This document shows positions 12,370 to 63,055 of a stretch of DNA of 64,000 nt, one piece after another. The notes under the pieces were generated by a model. It was not told the origin of the DNA, did no database searches, and saw nothing but the letters and a program-made list of their open reading frames with translations. The DNA comes from Chrysogorgia sp. JL179-B06 (Eukaryota; Cnidaria; Anthozoa; Scleralcyonacea; Chrysogorgiidae): NCBI GenBank assembly GCA_035772405.1, contig JAYKKM010000209.1:186001-250000 (forward strand), in the 5' to 3' direction. Made by a program: the position numbers and the translations under genes. How positions within the stretch are numbered: the stretch's first letter is position 1; each line of letters begins with the position of its first letter.

Positions 12370-13858
12370 ATGGCGTCGTACTCAAGCTCTGACGGTGACA
12401 GCAGTGCTGCATCAGGAATTGAAAGTGAAAATGAAGCAGAAATACCGCTTAAAAGAAAGTACACTGGATCTGCTAAGTACAAAGTTGCTTTTAAAACCGA
12501 GTGGAGATCTTTGCATCCTATTCAAGCAGTAAAAAGTGATGTTTATAAATTTCATTGCCTTCCATGTGGTAAAAATCTGAGTTGTCATCATCAAGGATTA
12601 AAAGACGTCGAAGACCACTGCAAGACGGAAACTCACCTTAAAAATTACTCTTCCTGGAAAAAGCAGCCCCAGTTATCGTTCTTTAAATCTTCTGATATCA
12701 ACTTCGAAAACCAGGTTTTGAATGCTGAAGTTATGGTAACCAACTTTATTGTTCAACATAACTTACCTATAGCCACAGCAGATCACACTCTTCAAGAAAA
12801 TTTTTCCTGATAGCAAAATTGCATCATCTTATTCATGTGCCAAAACCAAAACATTTGCAATTTTGAACGAAGCATTTGCACCTGATTGTCACAACTATAT
12901 AGTTGAACACTGCAAGACCCATGCATATAGTGTCGGACATGATGGATCAAATGATACTGGTGTCCAGAAGATGAATCCAGTGTCAATCAGAATATATGAC
13001 ATAAAACGATCTAAACTTGTCACTGATCATTTTTTCAACATGTGTGTCACTGAAGGTGATGATTGTTGCAAAGCTTTTAAGATATTTGAGGCAATTGAGC
13101 AATGCTTTGAGGAAGATGATATGCCTTGGACAAATTGTGTTAGTTTAAGTGTTGATAACACTAACAGCATGATTGGCATAAATAATTCAGTGGCATCTCG
13201 TTTCTTGGAGAAGAATCCTGCGACATTTATTGCAGGATGCCCTTGTCATCTGGCCCACATTGCAGCCATGAGTCATGCCAATGAAGCGTTCAGTACACAC
13301 GTCAACCTTAGTGTGGAAGATGTGTGTGTAGACTGTTATTATTGGTTTGACAAAAGTACTAAAAGAAAGGGAAAACTCACCGAGTACTTCGAATTTTGTG
13401 ATCAAGAGTATCAATCTGTGCTAAAACATCTTTCTGTTCGTTGGCTTTCATTAGAGCGTTGTATGGAAAGAATATTGAAAAAGCTACCAAGTTTGAAAGC
13501 ATATTTCCTGAGTGAAGATTTTCGAGATGATAGGTTCCAACGCTTAAATCGTTGGTTTACTAATCCACTGCTCGAACCTTCTCTACTGTTCAATACAGCT
13601 GCCATTGGCATTTTTACCTCCTTCAATCGTTTACTTCAAAGAGAGGAGCCCACTATTCATATTCTCAAGCCATCAATGGAGCGTCTGGGAAGAAAACTTG
13701 CCAACAGAATCGTTAAGCCTGCCGTGCTGCAAGATATCTCATCTATTACAGAGATAGATCTTGACATGTTTAATGTTTACATCAAAACATGTTTAATGTT
13801 TATGTATAATGTCACATATTGTCGTATGAATCATATATTGAATAAAGAAAAGGCGTAA
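12370..13858 (+). pseudogene. hAT-like transposase/domesticated-like gene, one frameshift, C-terminus missing
   Basis: One long reading frame of about 490 codons is broken once, near 12780, where one base appears lost: frame 1 to 12810, frame 2 from about 12782. The N-terminus is acidic and Ser-rich, followed by KRKYTGSAKYKVAFKTEWRS and a C-x2-C...H-x5-H zinc finger (FHCLPCGKN...DHCKTETH, about 12550-12635) of the type preceding hAT-like transposases. The second half has HDGSNDTG, LSVDNTNSMIG and GCPCHLAHIAA, matching hAT-core patterns (aspartates around the first catalytic motif, then C-x2-H). The final hATC dimerisation region is absent: the frame ends at 13858 before a tandem repeat. It has no intron. 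It could be a host family derived from hAT rather than an active transposon. Confidence 0.7.
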
Positions 13859-17880: not shown

Positions 17881-17910
17881 TTGTTGCTACTTGCAGCCTT
17901 GGACGCCATC

Positions 17911-19850
17911 ATGACTGACAGTGAACTTGAGCTTACAACAGTTGTAGAAGCAAGAGACGACAACATCGAAATGATTGATACCAATAGACCAATTGAAAAT
18001 ATGCAGATTGGGGAGGTTACTATTGGCAAACCCAAGCGGGGCCCACCAGTTCATCCAATATGGAGTTATGCGTTTGATGACCCCACTGGCACTGCTTACT
18101 CCATCACCAGCCCTAACAATGCCATATGCAAACACTGCAAGCAATCTGTCTGGCATCACCACAAAACGGCATCTATCAAAACCCACCTTCGAAAATGCCC
18201 CCAGTTCAAAAAGGTAATGTTGGACATGGCTGTCAGCGACCGCCCAGACTGGTGGACTAAGCAAAGGGGCACTGCAAAGAAGTCAATGGGGTCTACATCC
18301 TCCAAAAGCACTTCGTCTGTCAGCAGCAAGTCACAATCATCAGTAAGATCATTTAGCATACCCCTGTTCAGTGTCTCAGAACAAAAGAGGTTCAATCATG
18401 AGATGGCAATGTATTTTTACTGCACAGGCACAAGTTTCCAGAGGGCTGAAGATCCATTTCTCCTTCGGGCTATCCAATTGGTGCGCCCAGGTGCTAAATT
18501 GCCAACACGCAAGCAGAAGGTAAAGAAGGAAGTCAATAAGGTGCTTTCCACTAATGGTCTGTCTGCATTACAAGTGATGCATGGGACTGTAGCGAACGAT
18601 CCTGTTGTCAACTACATGGCTGTGTGTCCAACTAAATCGCTATTTTTGGAAGCAGTACACACAGAAGAGCAAAGTCATGATGCAGACTGGCTTTTTGCAG
18701 ACCTACGTCGTGTGATAGATAGTCTCGATGACAATGTGGTTGGTGCAGTTACCAATAACACAACAACCGACAAGAAGGCGTGCAGTGAATTGGAGAAGAA
18801 ATACCCAACACATTTTTTCCATGGGTGTGTGTCCCATGGTCTGCATTTTCTAGTGAAAGATATCTTTGCAGCCAAAAAGAAGGATGTCCCTGGTGGTGGA
18901 CCTGCTGAATATCCAGCTGGTTACCCATTTGAAGACCTGCTCCAGTTTGCTATCGACTGCAAGGATGTTGTTGCCTTTTTCCATAACCAAGTGGTCTGGT
19001 CCAGCCTGCACCAACACGTTGGGGCACATTGAATGGCTGTTTTAAATCGTTGCGAGCTGCTGATAACATCCTGAATGGTTTGGTATCTGAGCGGGATTTC
19101 GTTACCAAGGGAAATGCCAAACAAAAAGGAGAAACGTGTAGCAATTTAAGCAGTCATCACAGATCCTGATTTTGTCACCAAGCTTGACGAATGCATTACG
19201 ATTCTGGCACCAATCTACATGCACATAAAGATCTTGCAAAGCGATGCGGTTCCATGCTCAGATGTGTACAAGGCATTTGTTGAGCTGGAGGAGAAAATAC
19301 ACAGCCTGACGAATGTTGACGCAGACAAGAAGGCTTACCTAGTCGAGCTGGTGCGTAAACGATTCGATTTTATGTATGGAGATGCGCATGGTGTGGCCTA
19401 TCTTCTAGATCCGCGATACCTGGGTGATGGGATGCTGCGCACTCTACGAAAGGAGATTGAAGATTTCATGTACAAATTTCCAAAAAAGGATGGCACCGCA
19501 AGTGAGGCACGGATCATGGAGCAGTTGGCACAAGAGTATACTGCCTTTCGGATTGAAGCGCTCAGCGAAAGACAACAGAGCACATTCCGCTTTAAAATAA
19601 TCGGCAAGTCCAAGTCAGTACTCCAATGGTGGTTAGTGGACGGCACAGACTGGCCATTATTGCAGAATCTAGCATTGCATGTCTTTTCCATGGCAGCATC
19701 GAGTGCCGCCTCAGGAGCGGATTCATTCAAAACTAAGAAATCGCCTTGGTCACAAGAAAATCAAGAAATTGGTCTACATCAAGACAAACACTGTTCAGAT
19801 GGCAGATGTGCTGCTCAAGGACTGATTGTGACAGTGACGAGGATAGTATT
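17911..19850 (+). pseudogene. hAT transposase with BED zinc finger, two or more frameshifts
   Basis: ATG at 17911 starts a 373-codon frame. It has an acidic N-terminus, then a BED-type finger (HPIWSYAFDD, AICKHCKQSVWHHHKTASIKTHLRKC, about 18050-18200), a Ser/Thr linker, PLFSVSEQKRFNHEMAMYFY, FLRAIQLVRPG, and a hAT core with VVGAVTNNTTTDKKA and FFHGCVSHGLHFLVKDI. It shifts at about 19025-19150, then frame 1 reads HIKILQSDAVPCSDVYK... FLLDPRYLG..., the region before hATC. At about 19730 another one-base shift leads into KLRNRLGHKKIKKLVYIKTN, a hATC end. Two to three indels disable it. The likely right terminus is the CATCCCTG at about 20048-20055. I could not find the matching left end. Confidence 0.82.
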
Positions 19851-22600: not shown

Positions 22601-24935
22601 GTGCTATCTGATGCTCAGAATTTTAATCAACAACACCATCTCCATTACTTCATCGATAACCATCACCACGACGAAGACGAAGACAGAGAAGACTTAAACC
22701 AAACAGAAGTAAGAACTGACAATCTTAATTATTTAGACAACGTTCTTAATTTATCTAATAGAACTTTGACATCTGCTGAATTAAGTGTTCTCTCTAGGGG
22801 TCTTAATTTTTGCCCCATTCCTAAGATTATTGATCGTTTTCAGTTAAAAAAAGATTTGGTTGAATTTGGTAGATCGCTTAAGTGTAAGTTATTTTTTCAT
22901 GGTAAATCCAATACATCCAAACGCAGATGTTTTTTCCAAATTTAGAAAGAAGTCTACTTGGAATCCTCCAGTTTCTGAGCCAGCATTAGATTTATTTATT
23001 TCTGAGCTGGAAGTTAGACTTCTTTCTTTGGCAGACAAGGGAGGTCGTAAGCTCTCAAAAATCTTAAAACCTATAAAGATATAGTCATAAAACAAGCTGA
23101 TAAAGGTTCAGCTGTGGTAGTTTTGGGTCGTGATTATTATAAAGAAGAGGTGTTTAGGCAACTTTATGATTTGGCTATTTATGAGAGCATTGAAGCTGAC
23201 CCTAGTCCTGTGGTGTTCTCCCTTATCTGCGATAAATTTAAAAATTTGCATGATAATAAATTTATTGACACCAAATGTTTTGAATACCTTAATTTAAGGA
23301 TTGTAAAGTTAACTTAGGTAAATTTTATCTACTTCCTAAAATACATAAGGATGCCGTTAACCCCCCCCCCCTGGACGACCTGTAGTTTCTAATTGTGGTA
23401 TGCCCACTGAAAAAATTTCCGAATTTCTAGATTTTCATTTCCAGCCACTTGTCAAGGGAATCGCTTACTACATTCAGGACACCACGGGTTTTCTTGACAA
23501 GTTGGCGGGAATTGGAGATATCCCTGACAATGCTTTGCTTGTCACTATCGATGTAGTTGGCCTATATTCGCATATTCCCCATTCTGAGGGATTAGAGGCA
23601 CTCACAAAAGCTCTGGATGAGAGGGAGCATTTTCATATTCCCACATCGGAGTTAGTTGATTTGGCACAAATTGTTTTAGAAAATAATTATTTTGTATTTG
23701 ATGAAAAGATATTTCATCAAAAATTGGGCACAGCCATGGGCACTAAATTTGCACCAGCTTTTGCCAATATTTTTATGGCAGAACTGGAAAATCTCTTCAT
23801 TCAGTCTGTTCCATTTAGACCATGGTTGTGGAAGCGTTTTTTAGACGATGTTTTTATGATTTGGACTCACGGCAGGGCTCTTCTTGATGAATTCCTAATT
23901 GCTATTTTAAATTATTTTCATCAAACCATTAAATTTACATGGAGTATCTCTGATTCCTCTTTACCATGGACGTATTGGTGTCTTTCTCGGAAGGTTCCAT
24001 TAATACGGACCTTTATTGTAAGCCGACTGATACTCATCAATACCTCGATAGAAAGTCTTGTCATCCTAATTATGTCAAACGAGCCATACCTTATAGCCAG
24101 GCTCTGCGTACTAGTCGTATATGTAGCAAGACTACCGATTTTGAAGCCAGAAGTAGAGAGATGAAAACCTGGTTTAAGAAAAAGGGCTATAAAAGTAAAT
24201 TTTTAGACTCGCAAATTTCCAGGGCTGCTCGTCTTTCTCGTTCTGATACGCTCAAGCGTAAAGATCCCATGAATAATAATCATAAAAATAGGCCCTTAAT
24301 TTTAGATTTTCATCACTCTTTCTGGCGCTACTAACATTTTGAAGGATTTATATCCTATTCTTGCTAGTACGATCACCACTAAAGAAGTATTTTCATTAGC
24401 TCCATTTGTTTCCTTTCGTAGGCCTAAAAATCTTAAAGATAATTTACTTCGGGCTAATTAAGCTGCCTAAATCAGTTGACGTTTCAGGTCCGAAAGGTAT
24501 GCAACCATGCGGCAAATAAAGGTGCCAAACACGCCAGTTTGTTGTAGGGTTGGATACCTTTCAGGACTCTGATTCTAAACATTCTTATTTTATTAATTAT
24601 AATTTTAATTGCGACTCAGTAGGAGTCATTTATCTTTTAAGTTGTAGAAAGTGCAAGAAATTTTATATAGGCAGCACCACTGACTCTTTTCGTAGGCGGT
24701 TCAATAACCATAAAAGTAGTTTGAATCGTTACGGAAGGGGTCAGCGAGAAATGCCCGGAGAACACTTATATGCACATTTTTTTAGAAGGCCACAAGGGTT
24801 AAGCAGATGTATCAGTAAATATAATTGATAGGACAGACATTCATAATCCGACCGATAGAGAGGGATATTGGACATACCGACTTGACAATTATAAATCTAA
24901 TAAAACTAAAACTAAAAAGTTTTTATAGTTCCTAT
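22601..24935 (+). mobile_element. Penelope-like element with RT and GIY-YIG endonuclease, frameshifted
   Basis: N-terminal block LDNVLNLSNRTLTSAELSVL, SRGLNFCPIPKIIDRF, KKDLVEFGRSLK (22700-22890) is diagnostic of Penelope-like elements. The RT follows in a 254-codon frame (23400-24164): LLVTIDVVGLYSHIPHSEG, KLGTAMGTKFAPAFANIFMA and catalytic RFLDDVFMIWTHG (about 23838-23875). After more frame changes (about 23960, 24340-24550) a GIY-YIG nuclease appears: VGVIYLLSCRKCKKFYIGST, then RRRFNNHKSS (24620-24720). The end motif DIHNPTDREGYWTYRLDN is at about 24845-24890. At least five frameshifts occur. I see no LTR-like repeats. A TA/CA microsatellite follows at 24941-24981. Confidence 0.9.
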
Positions 24936-37828: not shown

Positions 37829-39514
37829 ATGGTCGTCGTCAACTGTACCATCGACGGGTGTGATTTCCAAACCGACGATACATCGGAGGCGCTGGCCATC
37901 GCCTTACTCGCAAACAACGGAATCTCACATCAAACTCAGCCACAAGCGAGCAACGGGCCGTCGCCTGCCCCCCGTGGCCCAAAGCTCGAGAGACCGAAGG
38001 TCGATGTGGGCGTCTCGATAGAGGAATGGAACATCTTCGTCCGCCGCTGGAATGTATTCCGTGCAGGCTCCGGCATCGACAACGAATCAGCGCCATCCCA
38101 GCTGTTCCAGTGCGCAGGAACAGCCCTCGGGGATAGCCTCCTTAAGTCGAACGCGAATGCCATGTCCCTGCCTTTTGCCGACCTACTCCAGGCGATACGT
38201 TCCCTGGCCATTATCCCGGTTGCGATCGGCGTTTTACGTACCGAACTACTCCAGGTGCGACAGGATCGTGACGAGGCCTTCAGAACATTTTCAGCAAGAG
38301 TACGCGGGAAAGCTGAGATGTGTGAGTTTGCAGCCACGTGCACGTGTGGATTGGCAGTCGATTACACCGACCACATAATCCGTGACGTCCTCCTCAGCGG
38401 CATTTTGGACTCAGACATACGTCGTGAAGTGCTTGGGACGATCGACATCCTAAAGAAGCCTGTTAATGACGTCATAGCCATGATTGAAAACAAGGAGATG
38501 GCGCGCAATGCCCTACCGTCGGCATCGTTATCAGCAATGTCATCATTCCGTCGCCAGCAGTCAGCCGCACCGTCCCCATCGTCATCAGAGCGCACGAGGC
38601 AAGCACCCTGTCCGGACTGCAAAACCATGTACATGCTCTTCTCCGAAGGGCAGCGAGGATGGAATGCCAAGCCCCACCAGGTGTGCATTGGCTGTTACAG
38701 AGCCCGGCACCGTACGAGGAAACCGACTGTCGCACCGGCCGCCCCCGCGGTTAACGCGGTGGAAACAGGCCACGTGTCTCAACTCGCGACTATCCTTGCT
38801 GATGACGCCAGTGTGCCCCACCGTCGGCGGCGGCGTCGTGGTCGTCGCAACCGTGGATGTTACAAGCAGCACTCCAACGAATCGGCCTCATCCAGCCTCC
38901 CAAGCGTGGCCCTTGATCATCATGTCTTTACAGCCGGTGAGTGGAGAAAGGCCCAGCTCCGTGAGCACCCCAAGGTCGCAGTCACCATCTCAGTTGATCA
39001 CTCGCACCCCTCGCCCCACCGGCCGCGCAGAAGTCATAGCAATCGCAGACACCGGTGCCATGTCGGACCTATGGTCGCTGTCGGAATTCCTCTCCTGCGG
39101 ACTAACACGCGATCTAGGACTAACACGCGATCTCTAAGACTAGGATTCTCCGCTGCGAACAAATCCCCCATCTCAATCGAAGGGGCATTCTTCGCCGAAA
39201 TCACAGCCGGGAGCAGCGGGAGCGTTAAAACATGTCGCTCTATGGTATACGTCAGCGGCTCTGTAAAAGGCATGTACCTCTCATATGATACGATGCTCAA
39301 CCTCGGCATCCTGCCAACCAGCTTCCCAGCCGCCGCACCAACCAATCCACTGCCCACAGCCCTTCGATCAACGTCGTCCGGATGGCCACCGGAGGCTGTA
39401 ATGCAGCCCACAAATCTTGCGACGACGCTTGCGCTTGCCCCCAGCGCAGCACCACACCTCCGAGGCGGAGTAGCTTGCCTTTTCCCTGCACACCCGAGAA
39501 CAACGAGCGAATGA
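37829..39514 (+). CDS. gag: Gypsy gag (with out-of-frame protease segment)
   Basis: ATG at 37829 opens 561 codons. Residues about 50-215 look like a retroviral-type capsid (KVDVGVSIEEWNIFVRRWNV, LFQCAGTALGD, FRTFSARVRGKAEMCEF, HIIRDVLLSGI, DIRREVLG). Instead of a CCHC knuckle there is a C4 ribbon-like pair, CPDC (C261, C264) and CIGC (C286, C289), then Arg-rich RRRRRRGRRNR. The protease signature AIADTGAMSDLWSLSEF lies in the +1 frame (DTGA at 39048-39059), while the protease end (CRSMVYVSGSVKGMYLSYDT) is back in the gag frame. So the frame was lost and regained around a small tandem duplication (ACTAACACGCGATCT, 39100-39135). The capsid part may still be translatable. Confidence 0.8.
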   Translation: MVVVNCTIDGCDFQTDDTSEALAIALLANNGISHQTQPQASNGPSPAPRGPKLERPKVDVGVSIEEWNIFVRRWNVFRAGSGIDNESAPSQLFQCAGTALGDSLLKSNANAMSLPFADLLQAIRSLAIIPVAIGVLRTELLQVRQDRDEAFRTFSARVRGKAEMCEFAATCTCGLAVDYTDHIIRDVLLSGILDSDIRREVLGTIDILKKPVNDVIAMIENKEMARNALPSASLSAMSSFRRQQSAAPSPSSSERTRQAPCPDCKTMYMLFSEGQRGWNAKPHQVCIGCYRARHRTRKPTVAPAAPAVNAVETGHVSQLATILADDASVPHRRRRRRGRRNRGCYKQHSNESASSSLPSVALDHHVFTAGEWRKAQLREHPKVAVTISVDHSHPSPHRPRRSHSNRRHRCHVGPMVAVGIPLLRTNTRSRTNTRSLRLGFSAANKSPISIEGAFFAEITAGSSGSVKTCRSMVYVSGSVKGMYLSYDTMLNLGILPTSFPAAAPTNPLPTALRSTSSGWPPEAVMQPTNLATTLALAPSAAPHLRGGVACLFPAHPRTTSE

Positions 39515-42200
39515 AGACATGGCTACTCGAACGATACTCATCGTCGACCTTCAACATGTGCCCGCACCGCACGTTACCCTGCATGGAAGGGGCTCCGATT
39601 GAAATACACATCGACCCGGACGCGACACCCAAGGCATGTCACACGCCCACTGACATCCCACTGCACTGGCAGAAACGGGTCCACGAAGATCTCCTCCGCG
39701 ATGAGGCCCTGGGGGTGATAGAATGGGTGCCTTATGGCGTCCGACAACATGGTGTCACAGGATGGTAGTCACGCGCAAACACGATGGGTGGCCAAGACAA
39801 ACCGTAGACCTCTCCCCGCTGAACAAATTTTGCAAGAGAGAAACGTTTGCTTCAGAGTCGCCATTCCACTTGGCCCGCCGCGTCCCGCACAACACCTGGA
39901 AAACTGTAACGGATGCATGGAACGGATTGCACAGTGTGCCACTACGCGAGAGCGATCGTCACCTCACCATGTTCATTACACTCCCTTTGGACGATGGCGT
40001 TACACACGCGCGCCCCAAGAATTCCTCAGCAGCGGAGACAGATACAACCGCCGCTTCGATGAAATTCTATCCGAGGTGCAACGGAAGGAGAGATGCATAG
40101 ATGATACAATCCACTACGACACAGACCTAGACGACCGCTGGTGACGAACCATCGACCTCCTCACAAGGGTCGGACAGGCAGGAATAGTGTTGAATCCTGA
40201 CAAACTCCAGTTCTCTCAGAAGACAGTGGACTTCCCATCAGGGAATTCCCCACGCCCACATCTACCACCGACATCAGGAGCTGGTTTGGACTAGTCAATC
40301 AAGTAGCCAACTACGCCAAGCTCCGGGACATCATGGCCCCTTTCAAGCCCTTCCTCAGCCCTCGGTGCCAGTTCTCATGGACACCGACATTGGACGAGGC
40401 ATTCGAATCATCGAAACAGGAGATCGTCAGTGCCATCCGCCGCGGTGTCGAGATATTCGACATTACAAGACGCACATGCCTGCGACCAGACTGGTCGTGC
40501 CGTGGCGTGGGCTACTTCCTGTTACAGAAGCATTGCAACTGCCCATCACAAATCCCCGACTGCTGCCAGGATGGCTGGCAAGTAACCCTGGCAGGGTCCC
40601 GTTCATTGTCGTCCGCGGAGGGACGCTACGCCGCTATTGAGGGCGAGGCCTTAGCCGTCGCATGGGGCCTAGAACAAACCAAGTACTTCACCCAGGGCTG
40701 TGATAACCTCGTGATCGTGACGGACCACAAGCCATTAGTGAAAATCTGGAAGTTCGAGATCCAACATCTTCCCGGCACGTCTAACACAGCAGCAGACGCC
40801 GCGTCCCGGCACCCCGCATCATCAGGCGCGACAGGACCTAACATGGACGACCTCATAGAGGCCACACTCATGGCGGCGGTCCACCGCGATGTAGAAGGCC
40901 TCGATGCCATCCCTTGGATCGAGATCTCCCGGGAGACGGCAGCAGACACCACGATGTCTCGCCTCATGCAATTGATCGAACATGGGTTCCACGAGAGCGA
41001 CAAAAGTGACAACGACCTAGCCCAATTCTGGCCTCTTCGCGAAGCCCTGTACATACAAGACGGTGTGATCCTTTACCAGGACCGCGTGGTAGTGCCAGCC
41101 ACCCTCCGTCGCCGCATACTCAGCCATCTACACTTCGCTCACTAGGGGGTAGCCCTGATGGGGCAGCGTGCACGGGCCATCATATACTGGCCCGGAATGA
41201 CAAAGGACATCAGCGATACTCGGCACTCATGCGCCATATGCAACCGCAACGCCCCGTCACAACCAGCAACGCCACCGATACTCCCTTCTCCTCCGTCGAC
41301 GCCCTTCGAAGCAGTGTTCGCAGATTTTTTTGACTACGGTGGTTGCCACTATTTGGTGGTAGGCGACCGCCTCTGGATGGGTGGAGATATTTGAATCCTC
41401 GTCCGGTACAGACCTGGCGGGCGCATCCGGCCTGACACGCCACCTTCGATCTTTCTTCGCCACCTTTGGAGTCCCGGAAGAACTGTCAAGTGACGGCGGA
41501 CCGGAGTTCTTAGAGGGACAAACGCAAGACTTCCTCCATCGTTGGGGCGTCCGACACCGTGTCTCATCGGCTTACTTCCCGCAATCCAACGGACGAGCCG
41601 AAGTCGCCGTTAAGACAGCCAAGCGCCTGTTAATGTCCAACACAGGTCCTACTGGCAGCCTGGACCGAGACCGATTTTTCCGTGCTATATTACAGCTGCG
41701 TAATACCCCCGATCCCGACTGCAATGTGTCTCCAGCTCAGATCGTGTTTGGGCGGCCGTTGCGCGATGCGTTCACATTCGTCAACCGTCTGGAAAAGTTC
41801 ACCAACCCTGATATTCGACCCCTATGGCGCAGGTCATGGACCTTAAAAGAAAATGCCCTACTGACAAGAATGACGCGCACGACAGTCTCTCGGAGAGCAC
41901 TCACGACCACTCCGTCCGCTGGCCATTGGCGATCGCGTGTTCATACAGAACCAGATGGGTGCTCACCCCACGAAATGGGACAGATCAGGAACTATCGTCG
42001 AGTCCCCTGGCTGCGATCAGTATCGGGTGAAGGTCGACGGCTCCGGAAGACTCACCCTCAGGAACCGGCGGTTCATACGCGTCTTCACCCCGGTCACCTT
42101 CGTCTCCAGTGCTCGCCATACCCCCGTGCGTGACGACGCCATCACCTCCGGGACCTGTCGTGGACTCAGCAGAGTGACCCGCGTCCGACGCTAAGTCGAA
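39382..42200 (+). pseudogene. pol: Gypsy pol: RT, RNase H, integrase, multiply frameshifted
   Basis: RT N-terminus: MKTWLLERYSSSTFNMCPHR, PTDIPLHWQKRVHEDL (39512-39710). After shifts: WCHRMVVTRKHDG, VDLSPLNKFC, TWKTVTDAWNG, and CIDDTIHYDTD (40090-40130), the position of the YxDD box, here with IDD. The RNase H frame is 40333-41145: CQFSWTPTLDEAFESSKQEI, SLSSAEGRYAAIEGEALAVA, VTDHKPLV, then a deletion joining to HLPGTSNTAADAASRH. The integrase zinc region (HLHFAH..., CAICNRNAP) stops once at 41145. The core FADFFDYGG (41326-41350), LSSDGGPEF and YFPQSNGRAEVAVKTAKRL follows to about 41830, then a basic tail. At least six frame breaks. Confidence 0.88.
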
Positions 42201-48571: not shown

Positions 48572-50290
48572 TTAAGAATGACCTACTAACAATTAAACAA
48601 CAAGGAGAGAAGAATGTGTGACTGATTTTATAAAGAGTAGGTTGCTTGTTGCAGAGCCTGATATCTTCTCAAAGATTTCTAAGCTAAAGTTGAAAACATT
48701 TTCATCCGTGACCAAGAAAGTTCGTGTTAGTTCAGCAAAAGGGGCCGAAGTCACCCTAAAGAATAACCGCAACCTGTTTGCTCGAATGCTTTTGTTGGCA
48801 CAAAGTAGAAACATCAACATGAAGGAAGTTCTAACATTTTCTTTGGGCACATTTCCTTTATCTCTTTCAACCGAAATGGGTACCTTGCACAAGACCCAAA
48901 AAAGGAAGTTGATGACATCAGTCGAATCAAGTGTCCAAAATCACACAGTGGATAACATTCCTGAAGGAAATGCCATTGTTCTTGATGGAATGGTACTCGT
49001 ACAGACTACCAAAAAGCTACCTTCATCGTTTGGAGAATTTGCAGAGAGTTATTTTCAAGGGTAATAAAGCTGGCAATTTATCACAAATCATCGCGTGTCG
49101 ATTTTTTAGTGGACAGATATCCTGACGTGAACATCAAAGACCTTGAACGAAATAAACGGACAAGTGGTGGATTAGCTGTAATCAATATTTATGGAGTTGA
49201 CCAAAAACTACCAGCACAATGGGGCAAGTTTCTTAAGCACGGTCCAAACAAAGAAGATTCATTGATTCGGTTTTTGTTTGAACAGTGGTGTACATACAAA
49301 TCCATGATGTTCAGTGGTATTGTTGTCTATGTTTGCCATGATGACAAGTGTCATCGCCTGATACCAGGACCAAATGATGCACCCAACAATGTTGAGGAAA
49401 TCGCTGAATTATCTTGTGACCACGAAGAAGCCGACACTAGAATGCTACTCCATGCATCCCATGCATCTCAGTCATATGGAAACGTTCTCATAAAGAGCCC
49501 AGATACAGATGTCTTCATAATTGTGCTAAATTTTTGTCCGATCCTCCGTTGTCGACTATTTTTTGAGACAGGTATCAAAGATAAAGCTCGTATTATAGAT
49601 GTCACTTGTGTTCTATAGCAGATTGGTGAGAAAGAAGGCAAAGCATTAATTGGATTTCATGCATTTACAGGTGAGCGATGTTATATTGCCTTTTAACTTG
49701 CATGATGTTTATTTAACTCATTAATGACACTTCAGTACCTCATTCTCCAACAAACTTGACAGATTTCATTTCTTTTATTTTTTCAAGGATGTGATTCTAC
49801 AAGCTCATTTTATGGTCGCAGTAAGATCTCAACTTGGAAATTGGTTTCAAACAGCCAAACATCCCTCGACACATTTGCACAACTTGGGAGTGACTTTAAT
49901 GTTGATGAGCCCATTCGGAAGAATCTTGAATCACTCACATGTATGCTATATGGGGTTAAGGATACCACTTCTGTGGATGAAGCAAGACACAATATGTTCA
50001 GGATGGGTAAATTTTGTGATGCAGCCTTGCCTCCAAACAAGGATTGTCTCTTAAAGCACATTCAGCGGGCAAATTACCAGGCAGCAATATGGAAGAAAGC
50101 AACATCACCAATGATAAATGCACCTTCACCAACTAACCATGGATGGAAGATTGACGAGGAAGGAAATATTGCTGTGGTGTGGATGGAAAACAAATGTGTT
50201 ACTGAAAGATTGTAAATGCAATGTTGCAACCTTGAGATGCTCATGCAAAAAAGAAAACAACCAGTGCAATGAAATGGGTCAGTGTGTTGG
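48572..50290 (+). pseudogene. Large multi-exon gene, 3' exons: EEADTR/DTDV acidic motif and CXC cysteine tail
   Basis: Continues NDLLTIKQQGEKN, a one-base shift (about 48613), then TDFIKSRLLVAEPDIFSKIS, LKTFSSVTKKVRV, NRNLFARMLLLAQSRNINMK. Next are a shift at about 49062, FLVDRYPDVNIKDLERNKR and WGKFLKHGPNKEDSLIRFLF. The acidic motif CDHEEADTRMLLHASHASQS ... IKSPDTDVFII (49415-49530) resembles XPG/FEN-type nuclease acidic clusters (inference). A TAG interrupts at 49616-49618. The intron is 49671-49787. The last exon reads GCDSTSSFYGR, ARHNMFRMGKFCDAALPPNK, QRANYQAAIWKKATSPMINA, and after a shift near 50200 CKCNVATLRCSCKKENNQC (50205-50262), a tesmin/CXC-like motif. Dead copy: stops plus at least four indels in this part. 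Confidence 0.82.
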
Positions 50291-50628
50291 ATAACAATAT
50301 CTGTTAGTATAGGAGAATCTCTTAAAAAAAACACACTTACACAAAAGACCCAATTCAATCAGTTTTTCACGTCTGTAGGCAAAAATACAGCAGATGCGTC
50401 CATTCGTCTGGCAGAAGAGTACAACATTACTGCAGCGGAAACACCTTTAGAGACAGTTCATATGCCCATTGAAGATCTCTTTTCCTTCAGAACAGTAACT
50501 AGTGAAGAAGTACGCCGTGTTATTTCATCTCTGCCATTGAACAAATCCCCTGGACCAGACAAGATAAACTCTCGAATCCTCAAAGACTGTCTCCCCATTA
50601 TACTAGGACCACTAACAAACATTATTAA
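50291..50628 (+). pseudogene. CR1/L2-like LINE ORF2, 5' segment before the Kolobok insertion
   Basis: Reads TQFNQFFTSVGKNTADASIR, VTSEEVRRVISSLPLNKSPG, PDKINSRILKDCLPIILGPL, TNII. This is the linker and first RT block (NKSPGPD) of a Jockey-superclade LINE. It ends at the TTAA where the Kolobok sits. Joining to 54857 gives GPLTNIINCSLTSCIFPTAW in frame. Confidence 0.9.
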
Positions 50629-50844
50629 AGGGATACTCCAGCCCCGAAACAAGTGTCGCTCAGATGAAAGATATATATGCCCTTACCTCCGAATGAGTAT
50701 TAGTTTCCTTCAAAACTTTTTAGTTTTAGAGTAATTTGCGTTTGTTTCTCGTATTTTTCGTTTACTGTGGGCCGCCATTGTTGCTTGTTTGCGGGCGAAA
50801 GCGGTCGCTCCCATTAGCGTTTTGACGTCATTGAGTGATAGAAA
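50629..50844 (+). repeat. Left TIR of the Kolobok
   Basis: 216 bp ending TTGAGTGATAGAAA. It contains TGACGTCA at 50823-50830 and GGCCGCCATTGTTGCTTG, features common in promoter DNA. It lies directly upstream of the transposase exon 1. Confidence 0.93.
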
Positions 50845-50915
50845 CAAATTTTCCTTCGACATTGTCTGCTTATATTCGTAAACACTGTTGATATATGTTT
50901 TGATATTTTTTTATA

Positions 50916-53525
50916 ATGCCTCATTGCATGGTGCCTGACTGCACAAACAACTCACGCAAGACTGCGGGAATAAGTTACCATCGAGTTCCAGCAGAAAAAC
51001 GTCTGCGGCAAGCGTGGCTGGCGAAAATTCGGCGAGCGAATCCTTGCAGCCGCGATAATTCATTTGTTTGCTCCGAACATTTTACCCCCGATTCCTTCGA
51101 GGAAAACTTACCTGGACTCGTATCTGGTTATCGAACAAGAAGACGACTAAAAGCCAATGCAGTTCCTTCAATATTTCATTTGAGAAGTACCGATAAACCC
51201 AAACCAACTACCCAACGAAGAAACCTTCGACGTTGTAGACAAGAGGTATTAATATAATTAGCTGAAATCCAATGCGCAATCTTTATTTCAATGCTTGTTA
51301 GGCATTTCATACGTTCTAGTTTCAATAGTTTAGCCAAGAGTTACTTTGTATACATATGCGCAAACGTAATTTAAAATTTAAAATCAGAATAAATGAAAAA
51401 AACAAAACTCGTTTCTGTATCTTTATTTTAAAGCATCACATTAAGACATATTTATGCATATTTTATTAAGATATCAGATGTTTCACTCGAATCAACATCA
51501 AAGTCAGAACATACCAGCCCAAGGGTTTGCGAAGTATCTGAGAACTCCGGGTCTACTGATGTAAGTCAAATGGACTTACAAGTTTTCCCTGAAGGTCTTT
51601 TAGCGGCGGCTAGTAGTAGTCTTCAACATGACAACAGTACCGAAGGCATTTCAGCTGAAATGCAACACTTTCCTGAAGATTTTGGCACAACAATCGAGGT
51701 AATTATGTCAGAATCTCAATCTCTTGCTGAAGATTTTGGCAAAGCAACAACTGAGATTGAAATCCAATGTGAGCTGTTAGTAAGACCAACCAGAAGTGTT
51801 GGAGTACAGACAGAAACAGTTACTGTTGCCGGTCAAACAGACATTGCTATTGACCATTGTTATGCCAAAACTCTTTCACCCATCTCTACCAATCAGAATA
51901 TATCCCCTTCAAAACCCAGCACTTCTTCTGCATATGTGTCTCCTTCAAAAAGTACCTATTCTGCAAATACATCTCCTACAGATTCTGATGGAGAAAATAT
52001 TGATGATGCGTACATACCTGGTTATGAAGATAGCCAAACTGAATCAGAAACTGAAAATGATGATGAATCAGAAAAAAGGCCCGTATACCAGAGAAAGTTT
52101 ATTGTGTTTGAAGAACAACTCGATAAGCTTTTTGTCAGTTGTTCTACCTGCCATAAGCCAATAATTGAAAACTCTAAAACTCTTTTTGGTAGCATGGTTG
52201 TGCTACAGTCATCATGTGTTGATGGTCACAATAACAAATGGCAATCACAACCCACTGTTAATGGGAGAATATCAGGAAATATGATGATTGCAGCATCCAT
52301 ATTGTTCAGTGGTAATACATTTGCCAATGTCAATTCCTTAGCATGGTGTCTTAACCTGTCTTTCATCAGCAGCTCCTTGTTCTATGACATACAAAAAAGC
52401 CTTCTATTTCCTGTGATCGAGAAGGTTTGGAAAGAACACCAAGTTAAGCTATTTAAGGAAATGAAAAAATCAAAGAAATTAGAAGTGTGTGGAGATGGAC
52501 GGTGTGATAGCCCGGGGCACTGTGCAAAATATGGTACATACACTATAATGGATGAAAGTAGCAGTAAAATAATTGATTTTAGTGTGGTACAAGTTACAGA
52601 GGTCACATCGTCCAATGCCATGGAAGCTGAAGGATGCAACCGAGTTCTATACAACCTCAAAGATGAAGGAATAAAGGTGAAATGTTTGACAACCGACAGA
52701 CATGTTACCGTTACCTCTGACATGAAGAAGAAGCATTCAGAAATCACACACCAGTATGATGTATGGCACCTGGCTAAATGGGTGGTCAAGAAACTGACCA
52801 AAAAAGCCAAAAAGAAAGAGTGTGAAGCATTAATGGCCTGGATACAGTCAGTATCATCCCATTTCTGGTGGAGCATATCAACATGTGAAGGCGATTATGA
52901 GATGCTGATTGAAAAATGGACATCCATAGTCCACCATGTTGGTAACAAGCACTCATGGCGAAATGGGAAGCTCTTCAAAAAATGTGCTCATGGTAGGCTA
53001 TCAAGAAAAGAGAGAAAAGAAAAAACCTGGCTGAAACCTGGAACCCCTGCCAATGTAGCTTTGGAAGAAATTGTCTTCAACAAAAAGTTGCTCAAAGATA
53101 TGAAGCTGGTTACAGAGTTCCATCACACTGGTAATCTGGAGGTGTACCATTCCATGATGCTGAAGTACTGTCCCAAAAGACAGCATTTCAGTCATGCAGG
53201 AATGGTGGCCAGAACACAGTTAGCTGCCCTTGATAACAACCACAATTGTACAAGGGAGCAAGCTGTGATCCAGCATGGTGAAAACAAAGGCAATCTAAAA
53301 TACAATCTGGTCTTCCCCAAAGTTCGTAAAACATGGGTGGTCAAGCCAATCAAGCAGCCAAAACAACACAGCTATCTCCATGGAATGATGGAAAATGTGC
53401 TCGAACAAGAAAAAGTCACTACAATCAGCAACCTCACACCTCCTGCTAAAAATATTGCTACAAAACCAAAGCCAGATAAAGCAGCAGCAATTATGAGCCA
53501 TATCAGCAGATTTCAAAACAAGTAA
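50916..53525 (+). CDS. Kolobok transposase, THAP domain + DDE core (2 exons, about 794 aa)
   Basis: Exon 1 (50916-51245) encodes a complete THAP zinc finger: C4 and C9 in MPHCMVPDCTNNSRK, W at QAWLAKI, C..H in NSFVCSEHFTPDSF, and the closing AVPSIF. The intron 51246-51470 starts GT and ends AG and joins in phase 0. Exon 2 (51471-53525) begins with an acidic Ser/Thr linker, then the catalytic domain: CGDGRCDSPGHCAKYGTYTI (about 52490-52550), VKCLTTDRHVTV (about 52678-52710), HQYDVWHLAKWVVKKL, FHHTGNLEVYHSMMLKYCPK, ALDNNHNCTREQA. THAP binds the transposon ends; the DDE core cuts at TTAA. No stop or frameshift, so possibly active. The length fits two-part Kolobok transposases. Confidence 0.93.
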
Positions 53526-53744
53526 ACATTTATTTTTAAACTACAGTGGTGAACTGCCAAGATTTTCGACAAGGAAATACTAAAATTTTGAATCAAAGCC
53601 CCTTATCAGAGTAAATTGTGACAATAACTACACAAGACAACAGAAGCCAGCAAAATTATACTGAATAATTTTTACACGCACATATATATTTTAACTATTG
53701 CTGAATCTTCCCACCATATTACAAAAGTTACAGTATAGTACTAT

Positions 53745-54548
53745 TCAATTTTCCTCATCAGATGCTTGCCTATGCCCAACAAACACATGTTCATCTTCTG
53801 GTCCAGGAGGTGGGAAGTGCGCTCTTATGCAACTGACCGCACAAGAGGGAAGCACAACTCTAACTTGCCTCCCAAGTACTCCCCAGCCTAATCGTGCTAG
53901 TTGTCGGTAAGCTATGTGCCTGTTTTTTTGGTGTTCTGGTCCTTCGTATGGATTGTCATATTGCTGCTTATACTGGTACCATGCCGTACGAAGAACCCAC
54001 CGATTTAAACACACAGCCCCAAACCCAGGATTATCTGTAATGCAAACAAGGGGATCTTTTAATTTCTCGAGAATCACCGCTTCTTCGTTGAGAGAGATCA
54101 TCTCTGGGATTTCCTGACAACAAACACACTCTGCAATTCTATCCATCATTTGACAATGGCCACACTGACACCTTATAATACAGTAATTATGTATTAGAAT
54201 ATGGAAGAATGCTCCATTGTTGACATTGGTAAGTGGCTGAGTTTCAACGCAATAGTATTACAGTCCGTAAAATATCACGAACGTTAATGCAAGTTACATT
54301 CTACAAGGATATTTTACAACATAAACTTACCATTCTAGGTTATTCAAACGGCTTCCGTCAATGGACGAGTCCGAGTTTTCGTCGCCAGCACTTTCATCCT
54401 CTTCAGAATCTGAGGACGAACATGGTTTGGTCGGCTCGAACTGATATGGCATTATCCCGGAGTTTTCAGCTTCGAGTAGAGTTTCTGACTGGTAGGGCAT
54501 GGCAATGTCACCTTCTTGGTCAGAAGAATCACTACTCGATCCAGACAT
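53745..54548 (-). CDS. P2X7 C-terminal (ballast)-like zinc protein carried by the Kolobok (2 exons, about 214 aa)
   Basis: Exon 1 (54548-54331, minus) is acidic and Ser-rich with MPYQFEPTKP and ends at a GTAAGT donor. The intron is 54330-54172. Exon 2 (54171-53745) joins in phase: W-CQCGHCQMM...ECVCCQEI, VCLNRWVLRTAWYQYKQQYD, HIAYRQLARLGWGVLGRQVR, VVLPSCAVSCIRAHFPPPG. The Cys cluster and the RWVL.TAW / YRQ...W..L / VVLP.CAV..IR..FP signature are those of the cytosolic ballast region of vertebrate P2X7, also found as stand-alone proteins in invertebrates. No transmembrane segment or P2X channel part is present. The frame is undamaged, and it starts about 90 bp inside the right TIR. Role in the element is unknown. 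Confidence 0.88.
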
Positions 54549-54636
54549 TTGTATTCTCAGTTAAATTTTCCAAATTTTAGGTTACAACAATGTTCAGCTA
54601 CAGAGAATACACAGTGTGATATACGAGCGGATGATT

Positions 54637-54852
54637 TTTCTATCACTCAATGACGTCAAAACGCTAATGGGAGCGACCGCTTTCGCCCGCAAACAAGCAA
54701 CAATGGCGGCCCACAGTAAACGAAAAATACGAGAAACAAATGCAAATTACTCTAAAACTAAAAAGATTTGAAGGAAACTAATACTCATTCGGAGGTAAGG
54801 GCATATATATCTTTCATCTGAGCGACACTTGTTTCGGGGCTGGAGTATCCCT
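54637..54852 (-). repeat. Right TIR of the Kolobok
   Basis: Inverted copy of the left TIR, with TGACGTCA at 54651-54658. It lies directly upstream of the minus-strand gene, as the left TIR lies upstream of the transposase. Confidence 0.93.
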
Positions 54853-54856
54853 TTAA

Positions 54857-56420
54857 CTGCTCTCTAACATCTTGTATATTCCCTACTGCATGGAAGGAGG
54901 CAGAAGCGATTCCCATAGTGAAAGACGGAGACCACGAAGTAGCATCAAACAACCGCCCGATATCTCTTCTTGCCATAGCTTCTAAGGTTTGTGAAAAGAT
55001 TGTACTTGAACAATTCAGTACTTACCTTATAAGTAAAAACCTGCTCTCTTCTCATCAAAGCGGAAATAAAACAACTCCATTCCACCGAGACCCTGAACAT
55101 TTTTAGTACTGACACGATGCCAGAGGCCATGGACAAAAAGAAACTCACCGCTTTAGTGTTGTTAGACCTCTCGAAAGCCTTCGACAGTATCAACCATCAC
55201 AGAATGTTACACAAACTAGCGAATGTTGGTGCTTCCCCAGAAACAGTACAGTGGTTTAAAAGCTACTTGTCAACTCAATCAACTCCACCCTATCTGATCC
55301 ACTACCAATTACTCACGGAGTACCTTAAGGTGCGACGCTTTCACCATTATTATTTTGTATTTACTTGAACGATCTGCCCTCCGTATCTCGTGACTCCAAC
55401 CTTAAATCGTACGTTGATGACTCGAAAGTTTTCCTCTCCTTTCCATTACGTGAAATAGATACATCAATTACAAATCTCGAACAAGACCTACACAGAGTCG
55501 CAAGTTGGTGCTGTGAAAAAACCACCTTTTAATTAACCCGTGGAAAACTAAGTACATGATAATTGGAACAAAGCAGCTGATGAACAGACTACCTACAGAT
55601 ACATCCGTATCATTCTTGGGCAAATCTCTTAGACCAGTGGACTCTGCTAAAGATTTAGGTGTTACGTTAGATAGTCACCTAAATTACGACAATCATACCT
55701 CGCTACTTGTCTCGTCGTGTATGAACAAATTATACCAGATAAATCGTGCTAAAAATAGTTTCGACACAAAACTCTATCGGAAATAATTTCATCCTTAGTC
55801 ATTAGCAAGATGCTTTATTGCTCTTCGGTGTGGTCGAATACGTCTGCCTCCAACGTAAAGAAAGTCCAGTCGATCCAGAATTTTGCATGTAAAATCATCA
55901 CGAAATCCAGGAAATATGACCACGTAACTCCACTTCTACGTGAATTAAATTGGCTTCCAGTGGACAAATTACTATATTTTAGAGACGCTATTTTGACCTA
56001 CAAATGTGTAAACAACCTCGCACCCGACTACCTTTGTAACAAATTGATAAAAAGGTCATCAATCCACAACCGTAGGACTCGTACACGTGACTCTCTTCAA
56101 ATACCGCTATTTAAAACTGCAGCTGGTCAACGGTCATTTGCATATAGAGCTGTCCACATTTGGAACAATTTAGATAAGAACCTGAAAGACAACTTTTCTC
56201 TTAAAACATTTAAAGCAGCACTGAAGAAACATTTGCTTGCAAAAGAAAACATTTAGTATAACCAACTAAATTATGTACATAGTTAAGATAATTTTTAAGA
56301 TACTTTTGTAAAACTTATACATGAAACCTCTACTGCATGCATGTAACTGTAAATAATTTCTGAAAAACCCTTTTAGGGAGAATTTATTAAATATCTATCT
56401 ATCTATCTCTCTCTCTTGAA
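54857..56420 (+). pseudogene. CR1/L2-like LINE ORF2, RT to 3' end, after the Kolobok insertion
   Basis: Reads EAIPIVKDGDHEVASNNRPI, SLLAIASKVCEKIVLEQF (RT block with NRPIS), LVLLDLSKAFDSINHHRMLH (55156-55215), then by frameshift LPLLF.IYLNDLP, SYVDDSKVFLSF (catalytic YVDD, about 55408-55440), KTKYMIIGTKQL, AKDLGVTLDSHLNYD, then LARCFIAL. The C-terminal part MLYCSSVWSN...KVQSIQNFACKIITKSR...ELNWLPV...FAYRAVHIWNNLDKNLKDNF runs to 56256. The 3' end carries a TATC/TC microsatellite tail (56392-56416), usual for this LINE type. At least four frame breaks. Confidence 0.9.
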
Positions 56421-61737: not shown

Positions 61738-63055
61738 TTGTTACAGACAAGAGATTGTATCGTACATATACAAGTTGAATCCGTGCGAAATGAATCAATT
61801 GGTTATGCGACGATTCCTATTTCTACCATCATTCTGTCTGGGAGGAGAAAATCTAAATCTATCGGTGGAAATATTCTCTACTACTCGAATTCGGTGAAAA
61901 CCTTTCGGCTTGTTCTAAGTGGGGATGTGGAGACAAATCCTGGACCTTCAAATCAAGCTGGGGAAAAGAAATCACGATGGAAATATCCATGCGGAGAATG
62001 TGCGAAGCCAGTCAAAAACAATGAGGATGGAATTCTATGCGTAGACTGTTCCCTTTGGTATCACGCGAAATGCGTTGGTATTTCGAAGACTACGTTTAAT
62101 TCATATTATATTATATGCAACACCCTGATATCGACTGGAGTTGTGTTAACTGTTTGATAAGCAGACCATCAGATTCGTTCGAAGATATCGAAGGCGAAAT
62201 ATGTGGTGGAAATTACGGCACTCCTACATCAAATGCAAATGAACCATCTAATAATGGAAACTTCATGTCACCTGTCGAAGCCAATGGATTTGTCGGTTCA
62301 TCGAATAGCTCAGATTTAGAGCTATTCCCTGAGGAAGGAAAACAAAGACCAAATTTCTATCTACAAAGTGGTGTTGTGAATCCTCAGCCTAACCTCGATT
62401 CTAATGCTGATTCACCAAGACCTGGCTTGAGAAAGTCCCCTGTTCAGGTAAACAATACTTTACCTCCTCGCAATAACTCTAGCCTGAACTTGTCATTGTC
62501 TTCACTTCGTCCTTCTACCAGTGTCCATCGACATTGCACTGTTTCTCCCAGAATGTTCGAAGTATAAATTCCAAACTTAAAGACTTTCAAGACTCAATCT
62601 ATGCTAATCAATTCGACATTGTCGCCATAACAGAATCATGGCTAACCAACGCCATTTCTGACTCTGAACTGCTGCCGTGGGGCTACGATATCCATCGCTG
62701 TGATCGTCGTGTTCCAACAAACCCTTCCTCCTCTTTGCCAGCTCGTGACGGTGGGGTGTTCTTAGCGATTCGAAATGAACTCCGCTGTAAACCCGTTTCC
62801 TTGTGTGCCGATCACTGTGACATTGAATATGCCGCTGTTGAAGTACTTACAAATAACTGCGGGAAAGTATTATTCGCTGTGTTCTACAGACCGCCTAACG
62901 CGAGTATTGATTGGACCTCTCAATTTACTAGGATACTGGATAGTTGTACATATAATAAGGCTGTAATACTTGGCGACTTCAACTTCACCTCAATCAATTG
63001 CATTGAAGGTTCTGGTTTCTGGTTTCTGTGAGTCTGCTAACTCGGATTTATTTAA
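61738..63055 (+). pseudogene. CR1/L2-like LINE 5' part: 2A peptide, PHD finger, APE endonuclease, truncated
   Basis: Frame 1 contains TFRLVLSGDVETNPGP at 61900-61947, a 2A-type ribosome-skipping motif (D-x-E-x-N-P-G-P). It is followed by a PHD finger (CGECAKP, ILCVDCSLWYHAKCVG, DWSCVNC; 61990-62155) across a one-base shift near 62105. A Ser/Asn-rich linker follows. After a second shift near 62545 the endonuclease reads FSQNVRSINSKLKDFQ, DIVAITESWLT, GGVFLAIRNEL, VFYRPPNASIDW, KAVILGDFNF. It stops at a TTAA (63052-63055), where an inverted-repeat element begins. No RT is present. PHD + APE is the usual CR1/L2 N-terminal layout. Confidence 0.9.

Follow-up and report, generated by a model that had tools for sequence, protein, structure and literature searches.

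Kolobok transposons of the Kol0 group encode a protein named KolX beside the transposase, as a second protein of the element (Kojima and Bao 2022; PMC9587614). In the parts of that account used here, KolX resembles the region of the P2X7 receptor that has the ballast fold and shares seven conserved cysteines, P2X7 is derived from a P2X4-like gene to which KolX became fused, and Nanor is a likely domesticated KolX. A stand-alone ballast domain, encoded by genes widespread across animals, was described by Rump 2020 (PMC7016195). The link to transposons is absent from the sections of that paper used here, and its main text contains no word starting with 'transpos' or 'mobile'. No functional test of KolX was found in the part of the literature consulted under that name. 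A Kolobok element with an apparently undamaged KolX gene is described here from the anthozoan Chrysogorgia sp. JL179-B06. It lies in a stretch of 64,000 nucleotides (contig JAYKKM010000209.1, positions 186,001 to 250,000), called the window below.

The element is very probably a structurally complete, autonomous Kolobok of the KolX-bearing (Kol0) kind, assigned there by the ballast fold of its KolX, and its insertion was probably recent. Its borders are formed by terminal inverted repeats (TIRs) and TTAA duplications, and it carries two convergent genes:

50629-54852, whole Kolobok element, 4224 bp, delimited by TIRs and TTAA
50625..50628, no strand, left TTAA target-site duplication, directly outside the element end
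50629..50844, plus strand, left TIR, 216 bp, begins AGGG, 214/216 identical to the right TIR
50916..51242, plus strand, transposase exon 1, THAP DNA-binding domain (Pfam THAP PF05485, E 5e-20)
51243..51470, plus strand, predicted transposase intron, GT-AG, phase 0, 228 bp
51471..53525, plus strand, transposase exon 2, acidic linker and RNase H-like DDE core
53745..54171, minus strand, KolX exon 2, zinc/ballast domain with R157-H158 and R189 (Pfam P2RX7_C and fold match)
54172..54330, minus strand, predicted KolX intron, GT-AG, 159 bp
54331..54548, minus strand, KolX exon 1, acidic and serine-rich N-terminus with MPYQSE and MPYQFEP
54637..54852, minus strand, right TIR, 216 bp, ends CCCT, 214/216 identical to the left TIR
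54853..54856, no strand, right TTAA target-site duplication, directly outside the element end

The two TIRs differ at 2 positions over 216 bp (the inverted-repeat search returned a 220-nt pair, TTAA included). Chance is excluded as the origin of two facing 216-bp inverted arms of 99% identity, 3.8 kb apart. The termini AGGG...CCCT have the 5'-RR...YY-3' form of the Kolobok superfamily, and the TTAA duplication is likewise that of the superfamily. When the flanks (50282-50628 and 54857-55100) were rejoined at one TTAA, a reading frame stayed open across the join, into ...KEAEAIPIVKDGDHEVASNNRPISLLAIASKV.... From its motif we take this frame to be a reverse transcriptase of the long interspersed nuclear element (LINE) type; its left 115 residues alone gave no Pfam match. 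The element was probably inserted into the reverse-transcriptase-like open reading frame (ORF) of an older LINE-type element. The target LINE is itself decayed, since the flank frame meets a stop 82 residues past the join and continues in another frame. A blastn search of the window (E 0.01) revealed no further copy of the element, and tblastn of the window gave a lone stray KolX match of 21 residues at E 0.44.

The introns of both genes were predicted from sequence. The spliced transposase has 793 residues and no internal stop. Its THAP domain has C4, C9, C52 and H55, followed by an AVPSIF box at 82, as in the THAP and AVPTIF-type box of the Kolobok superfamily. The DDE core comprises D451, D518, a DxxH at 539-542 and E666. 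In an alignment of 17 transposases (651-residue numbering), D309, D376 and E524 are present in 17/17 each, E524 being the presumed catalytic glutamate. The first position of the DxxH, D397, is kept in 16/17 (H in one), and H400 in 17/17. H456, H461, C472 and H474, each invariant in the 17 sequences, would form an H2CH zinc finger. In the transposase structure model, these DDE and zinc-finger positions are consistent with the arrangement of strands and helices. A DDE core, C/DxxH between the second D and the E, and an H2CH finger are together the Kolobok arrangement. A profile search of PDB sequences with the transposase gave three matches at E 0.29-0.92, which were taken as chance, and the P element transposase was not among the 50 structure matches listed.

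Spliced KolX has 214 residues without an internal stop and contains C74, C76, C79, C90, C91, C116 and C183. When started at the first ATG, the exon-2 ORF has 134 residues and lacks the CQCGHC stretch that holds the first three of these cysteines; the predicted splice restores it. The sequence across the junction, a W and then CxCxx[CF], is found in 12/12 homologues that are named at NCBI and complete at the N-terminus (P0027 among them is C-terminally short; a thirteenth named homologue, P0084, is partial and was left out). Pfam P2RX7_C (PF20478) was matched by the exon-2 ORF at E 1.8e-10. It was the only family on that ORF, exon 1 matched none, and a P2X channel domain was not found. The near-identical TIRs with TTAA borders, the undamaged THAP-DDE gene and the undamaged two-exon minus-strand gene claimed in a sequence-only reading of this DNA were all borne out.

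The relationship to P2X7 was examined by sequence and by structure. In searches of PDB sequences P2X7 was reached at E 0.03 with the 134-residue ORF as a single sequence, and at E 1.2e-5 with a 45-sequence profile. The predicted fold of the 141-residue exon-2 part (pLDDT 81.6, pTM 0.76) matches P2X7 residues 477-595 in the first 14 rows of the structure search, with the next match far lower. KolX therefore has the ballast fold that marks the Kol0 lineage. The structure alignments begin with model residue 1, the first cysteine of CQCGHC, on chain residue 477. As the alignment ranges give end points only, the modelled fold suggests, but does not directly display, a pairing of CQCGHC with CQCGNC of rat P2X7. 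Against this pairing, both sequence alignments place the CVCC stretch at 477; the query of the single-sequence alignment did not contain CQCGHC. The CQCGHC pairing is preferred because the structure alignment and the cysteine spacing were judged the better guide. In the single-sequence alignment, CIT, RH.AYR and LPSC....IR..FP are common to KolX and rat P2X7. Of the P2X7 C-terminal signature named in the sequence-only reading, RWVLRTAW is KolX-like, and rat P2X7 differs there. A structure search of viral proteins with KolX gave nothing at E 0.001. Scans for relatives of KolX (by single sequence and by alignment) and of the transposase gave no confirmed locus in viral and prokaryotic contig collections, which carries little weight as these collections hold viruses and prokaryotes. 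A viral origin was considered and dropped.

Conservation was counted in the 120 homologues listed of 225 with E <= 0.001. These lie near the query, so that the counts describe KolX-like proteins and not all ballast proteins. The named ones come from Montipora, Exaiptasia, Acropora, Xenia, Saccoglossus and Tubulanus, that is, from anthozoans, a nemertean and an acorn worm, and the best match listed is 93% identical over the exon-2 ORF. The seven cysteines are nearly invariant: C74 50/50, C76 51/51, C79 50/51, C90 117/119, C91 118/119, C116 118/120 and C183 120/120. The lower totals at the first three are probably due to the many matches that are exon-2 ORFs. Three further cysteines are conserved, C88 (108/117), C127 (119/120) and C187 (113/120), and might form an additional metal site or bond; C127 and C187 lie opposite V and K in the rat P2X7 alignment. 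C88 adjoins the CC pair.

The five guanosine diphosphate (GDP) contacts of rat P2X7, taken from the relevant part of Rump 2020 (PMC7016195), were matched through the single-sequence alignment. Three are kept in the listed homologues, R546 as R157 (118/120), H547 as H158 (120/120) and R578 as R189 (116/120). The other two are replaced, R574 by V185 (R in 0/120) and K583 by P194 (P in 119/120). The presence of the H547 equivalent in all 120 is unlike the statement in that paper that R546 and R578 alone are kept outside deuterostomes. The kept residues could point to a guanine-nucleotide-dependent step of transposition supplied by KolX in trans, comparable to the built-in GTP-binding domain of the P element transposase. 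According to the part of a preprint used here (PMC10983969), that enzyme, also a THAP-DDE protein, requires guanosine triphosphate (GTP), without hydrolysis, for end pairing and assembly of the synaptic complex. By this analogy KolX would be a guanine-nucleotide-responsive gate of Kolobok end pairing, and the GDP site of mammalian P2X7 a relic of transposon control. The idea is an unlikely one. R574 and K583 are replaced, the homologues counted all lie rather near the query, and RH and R could equally serve to hold the fold. GDP, GTP and guanosine are absent from the main text of PMC9587614, figures and supplements lying outside this count.

In the same unlikely proposal, a motif in exon 1 would serve as a peptide that docks onto the transposase or onto a host factor. 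This exon has a D+E+S fraction of 0.49 (0.38-0.56 in the 12 named homologues) and contains MPYQFEP and a second, partial copy, MPYQSE. The NCBI-named homologues whose N-terminus is complete all have the pattern x[YF]x[FY]EP (12/12). A stricter form, [PAG][YF]x[FY]EP, occurs in 12/21 listed homologues in which 30 or more residues precede the first cysteine; of the nine without it, P0013 has LYQFEP and the other eight carry no NCBI name. In P0052 the sequence upstream of the first cysteine resembles a translated intron. Neither the main text of PMC9587614 nor that of PMC7016195 contains a word beginning with FEP; figures, supplements and any motif inside a longer string lie outside this count.

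Both TIRs hold the palindrome TGACGTCA near the inner end and ATGGCGGC on the other strand, which we take to be a CREB/ATF-type site and a YY1-type core, respectively. Only this core is present there; AANATGGCGGC, presumably the YY1 consensus, was not found in the TIRs. TGACGTCA gave 18 strand-hits in the window, which amount to 9 places because it is a palindrome, 2 in the TIRs and 7 elsewhere. It could conceivably act as an inward-directed promoter element of the TIRs. Since the ATG of the transposase lies 71 bp, and that of KolX 88 bp, inside the TIRs, each of the near-identical repeats may drive one gene inwards. The THAP domain would bind the element ends, the DDE core would cut and paste at TTAA, and KolX would serve as an accessory protein of transposition, in assembly or regulation.

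Kojima and Bao (2022; PMC9587614, in the part used here) have already published the transposon link between KolX and P2X7. The suggestions of the sequence-only reading that Kolobok elements have the zinc domain as an accessory protein, and that residence in a transposon was its route into P2X7, agree with the sequence and with conclusions published there. The origin of P2X7 from a P2X4-like gene that gained a KolX-type domain by fusion, and with it the direction from transposon to receptor, is accepted here as the published inference of those authors. The present analysis adds an apparently undamaged copy, its exact gene model, the exon-1 motif, the near-invariant R-H...R and the other details of conservation. 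Rump 2020 (PMC7016195), in the part used, lists as an exception an Ixodes ORF in which a 'TAHP' domain, presumably THAP, precedes the ballast domain on the N-terminal side; this ORF could be a Kolobok element whose genes were annotated as a single one.

The minus-strand gene had been called 'cargo' in the earlier reading. This term does not hold, as KolX is described as a regular second protein of Kol0 elements (PMC9587614, as seen in part). A stronger form of the idea, in which a Kolobok captured a host ballast gene that plays no part in transposition, would be consistent with the spread of stand-alone ballast genes in animals (Rump 2020, part used) and with the single genomic copy seen here. 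It is nevertheless very improbable. Besides the published place of KolX in Kol0, the gene bears no damage and mirrors the transposase in its placement, and apart from the TIRs there are two weak inverted pairs only (24-27 nt, 70-71%), which lie in acidic coding stretches and do not resemble borders. That KolX is a nested second transposon or a pseudogene that was never a gene of the element, as the KolX-like protein without most cysteines in a few piggyBac families, also TTAA-specific (PMC9587614, part used), might suggest, hardly deserves credence, given that the TIRs are the sole long inverted repeats in 50400-55100 and that the frame, once spliced, has no internal stop and retains all seven cysteines. 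Two separate elements were also considered and dropped.

The window is dense in other transposon relics:

172-1519, integrase-type ORF and DUF5641 ORF (Pfam)
17881-19032, DUF659 ORF (Pfam, match to 19029)
23400-24164, reverse transcriptase (match to 24161, just under the Pfam cut-off)
40333-41142, reverse transcriptase RNase H, in the region 37829-41145 (Pfam)
62534-63031, endonuclease domain (Pfam, match to 63028)

For two further ORFs, 12863-13858 and 37829-39514, Pfam gave nothing at E 0.001.

With its two open genes, this copy offers practical material for testing the role of KolX, and the guanine-nucleotide question can be put to the test through the conserved RH...R site. The element also directly illustrates the published claim that a receptor domain of P2X7 came from a transposon protein. 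Among the known systems, compared by description and from the parts of the papers used here, the Kol0 group (Kolobok-1_XT type, PMC9587614) has the same TTAA, RR/YY termini, DDE transposase and second protein with a ballast fold. The Xenopus Kolobok transposases (PMC6004289) share TTAA, AG termini, the THAP C2CH, an AVPTIF-type box, H2CH and DDE; that account covers transposases and not KolX. Nanor and the stand-alone ballast (ZCD) proteins (PMC7016195) are likewise short, with a variable N-terminus and a C-terminal cysteine domain, whereas KolX here sits within a complete transposon. Compared with the ballast domain of P2X7, KolX is without a channel, has a longer loop from CC to the next cysteine, carries the extra cysteines 88, 127 and 187, and lacks R574 and K583.
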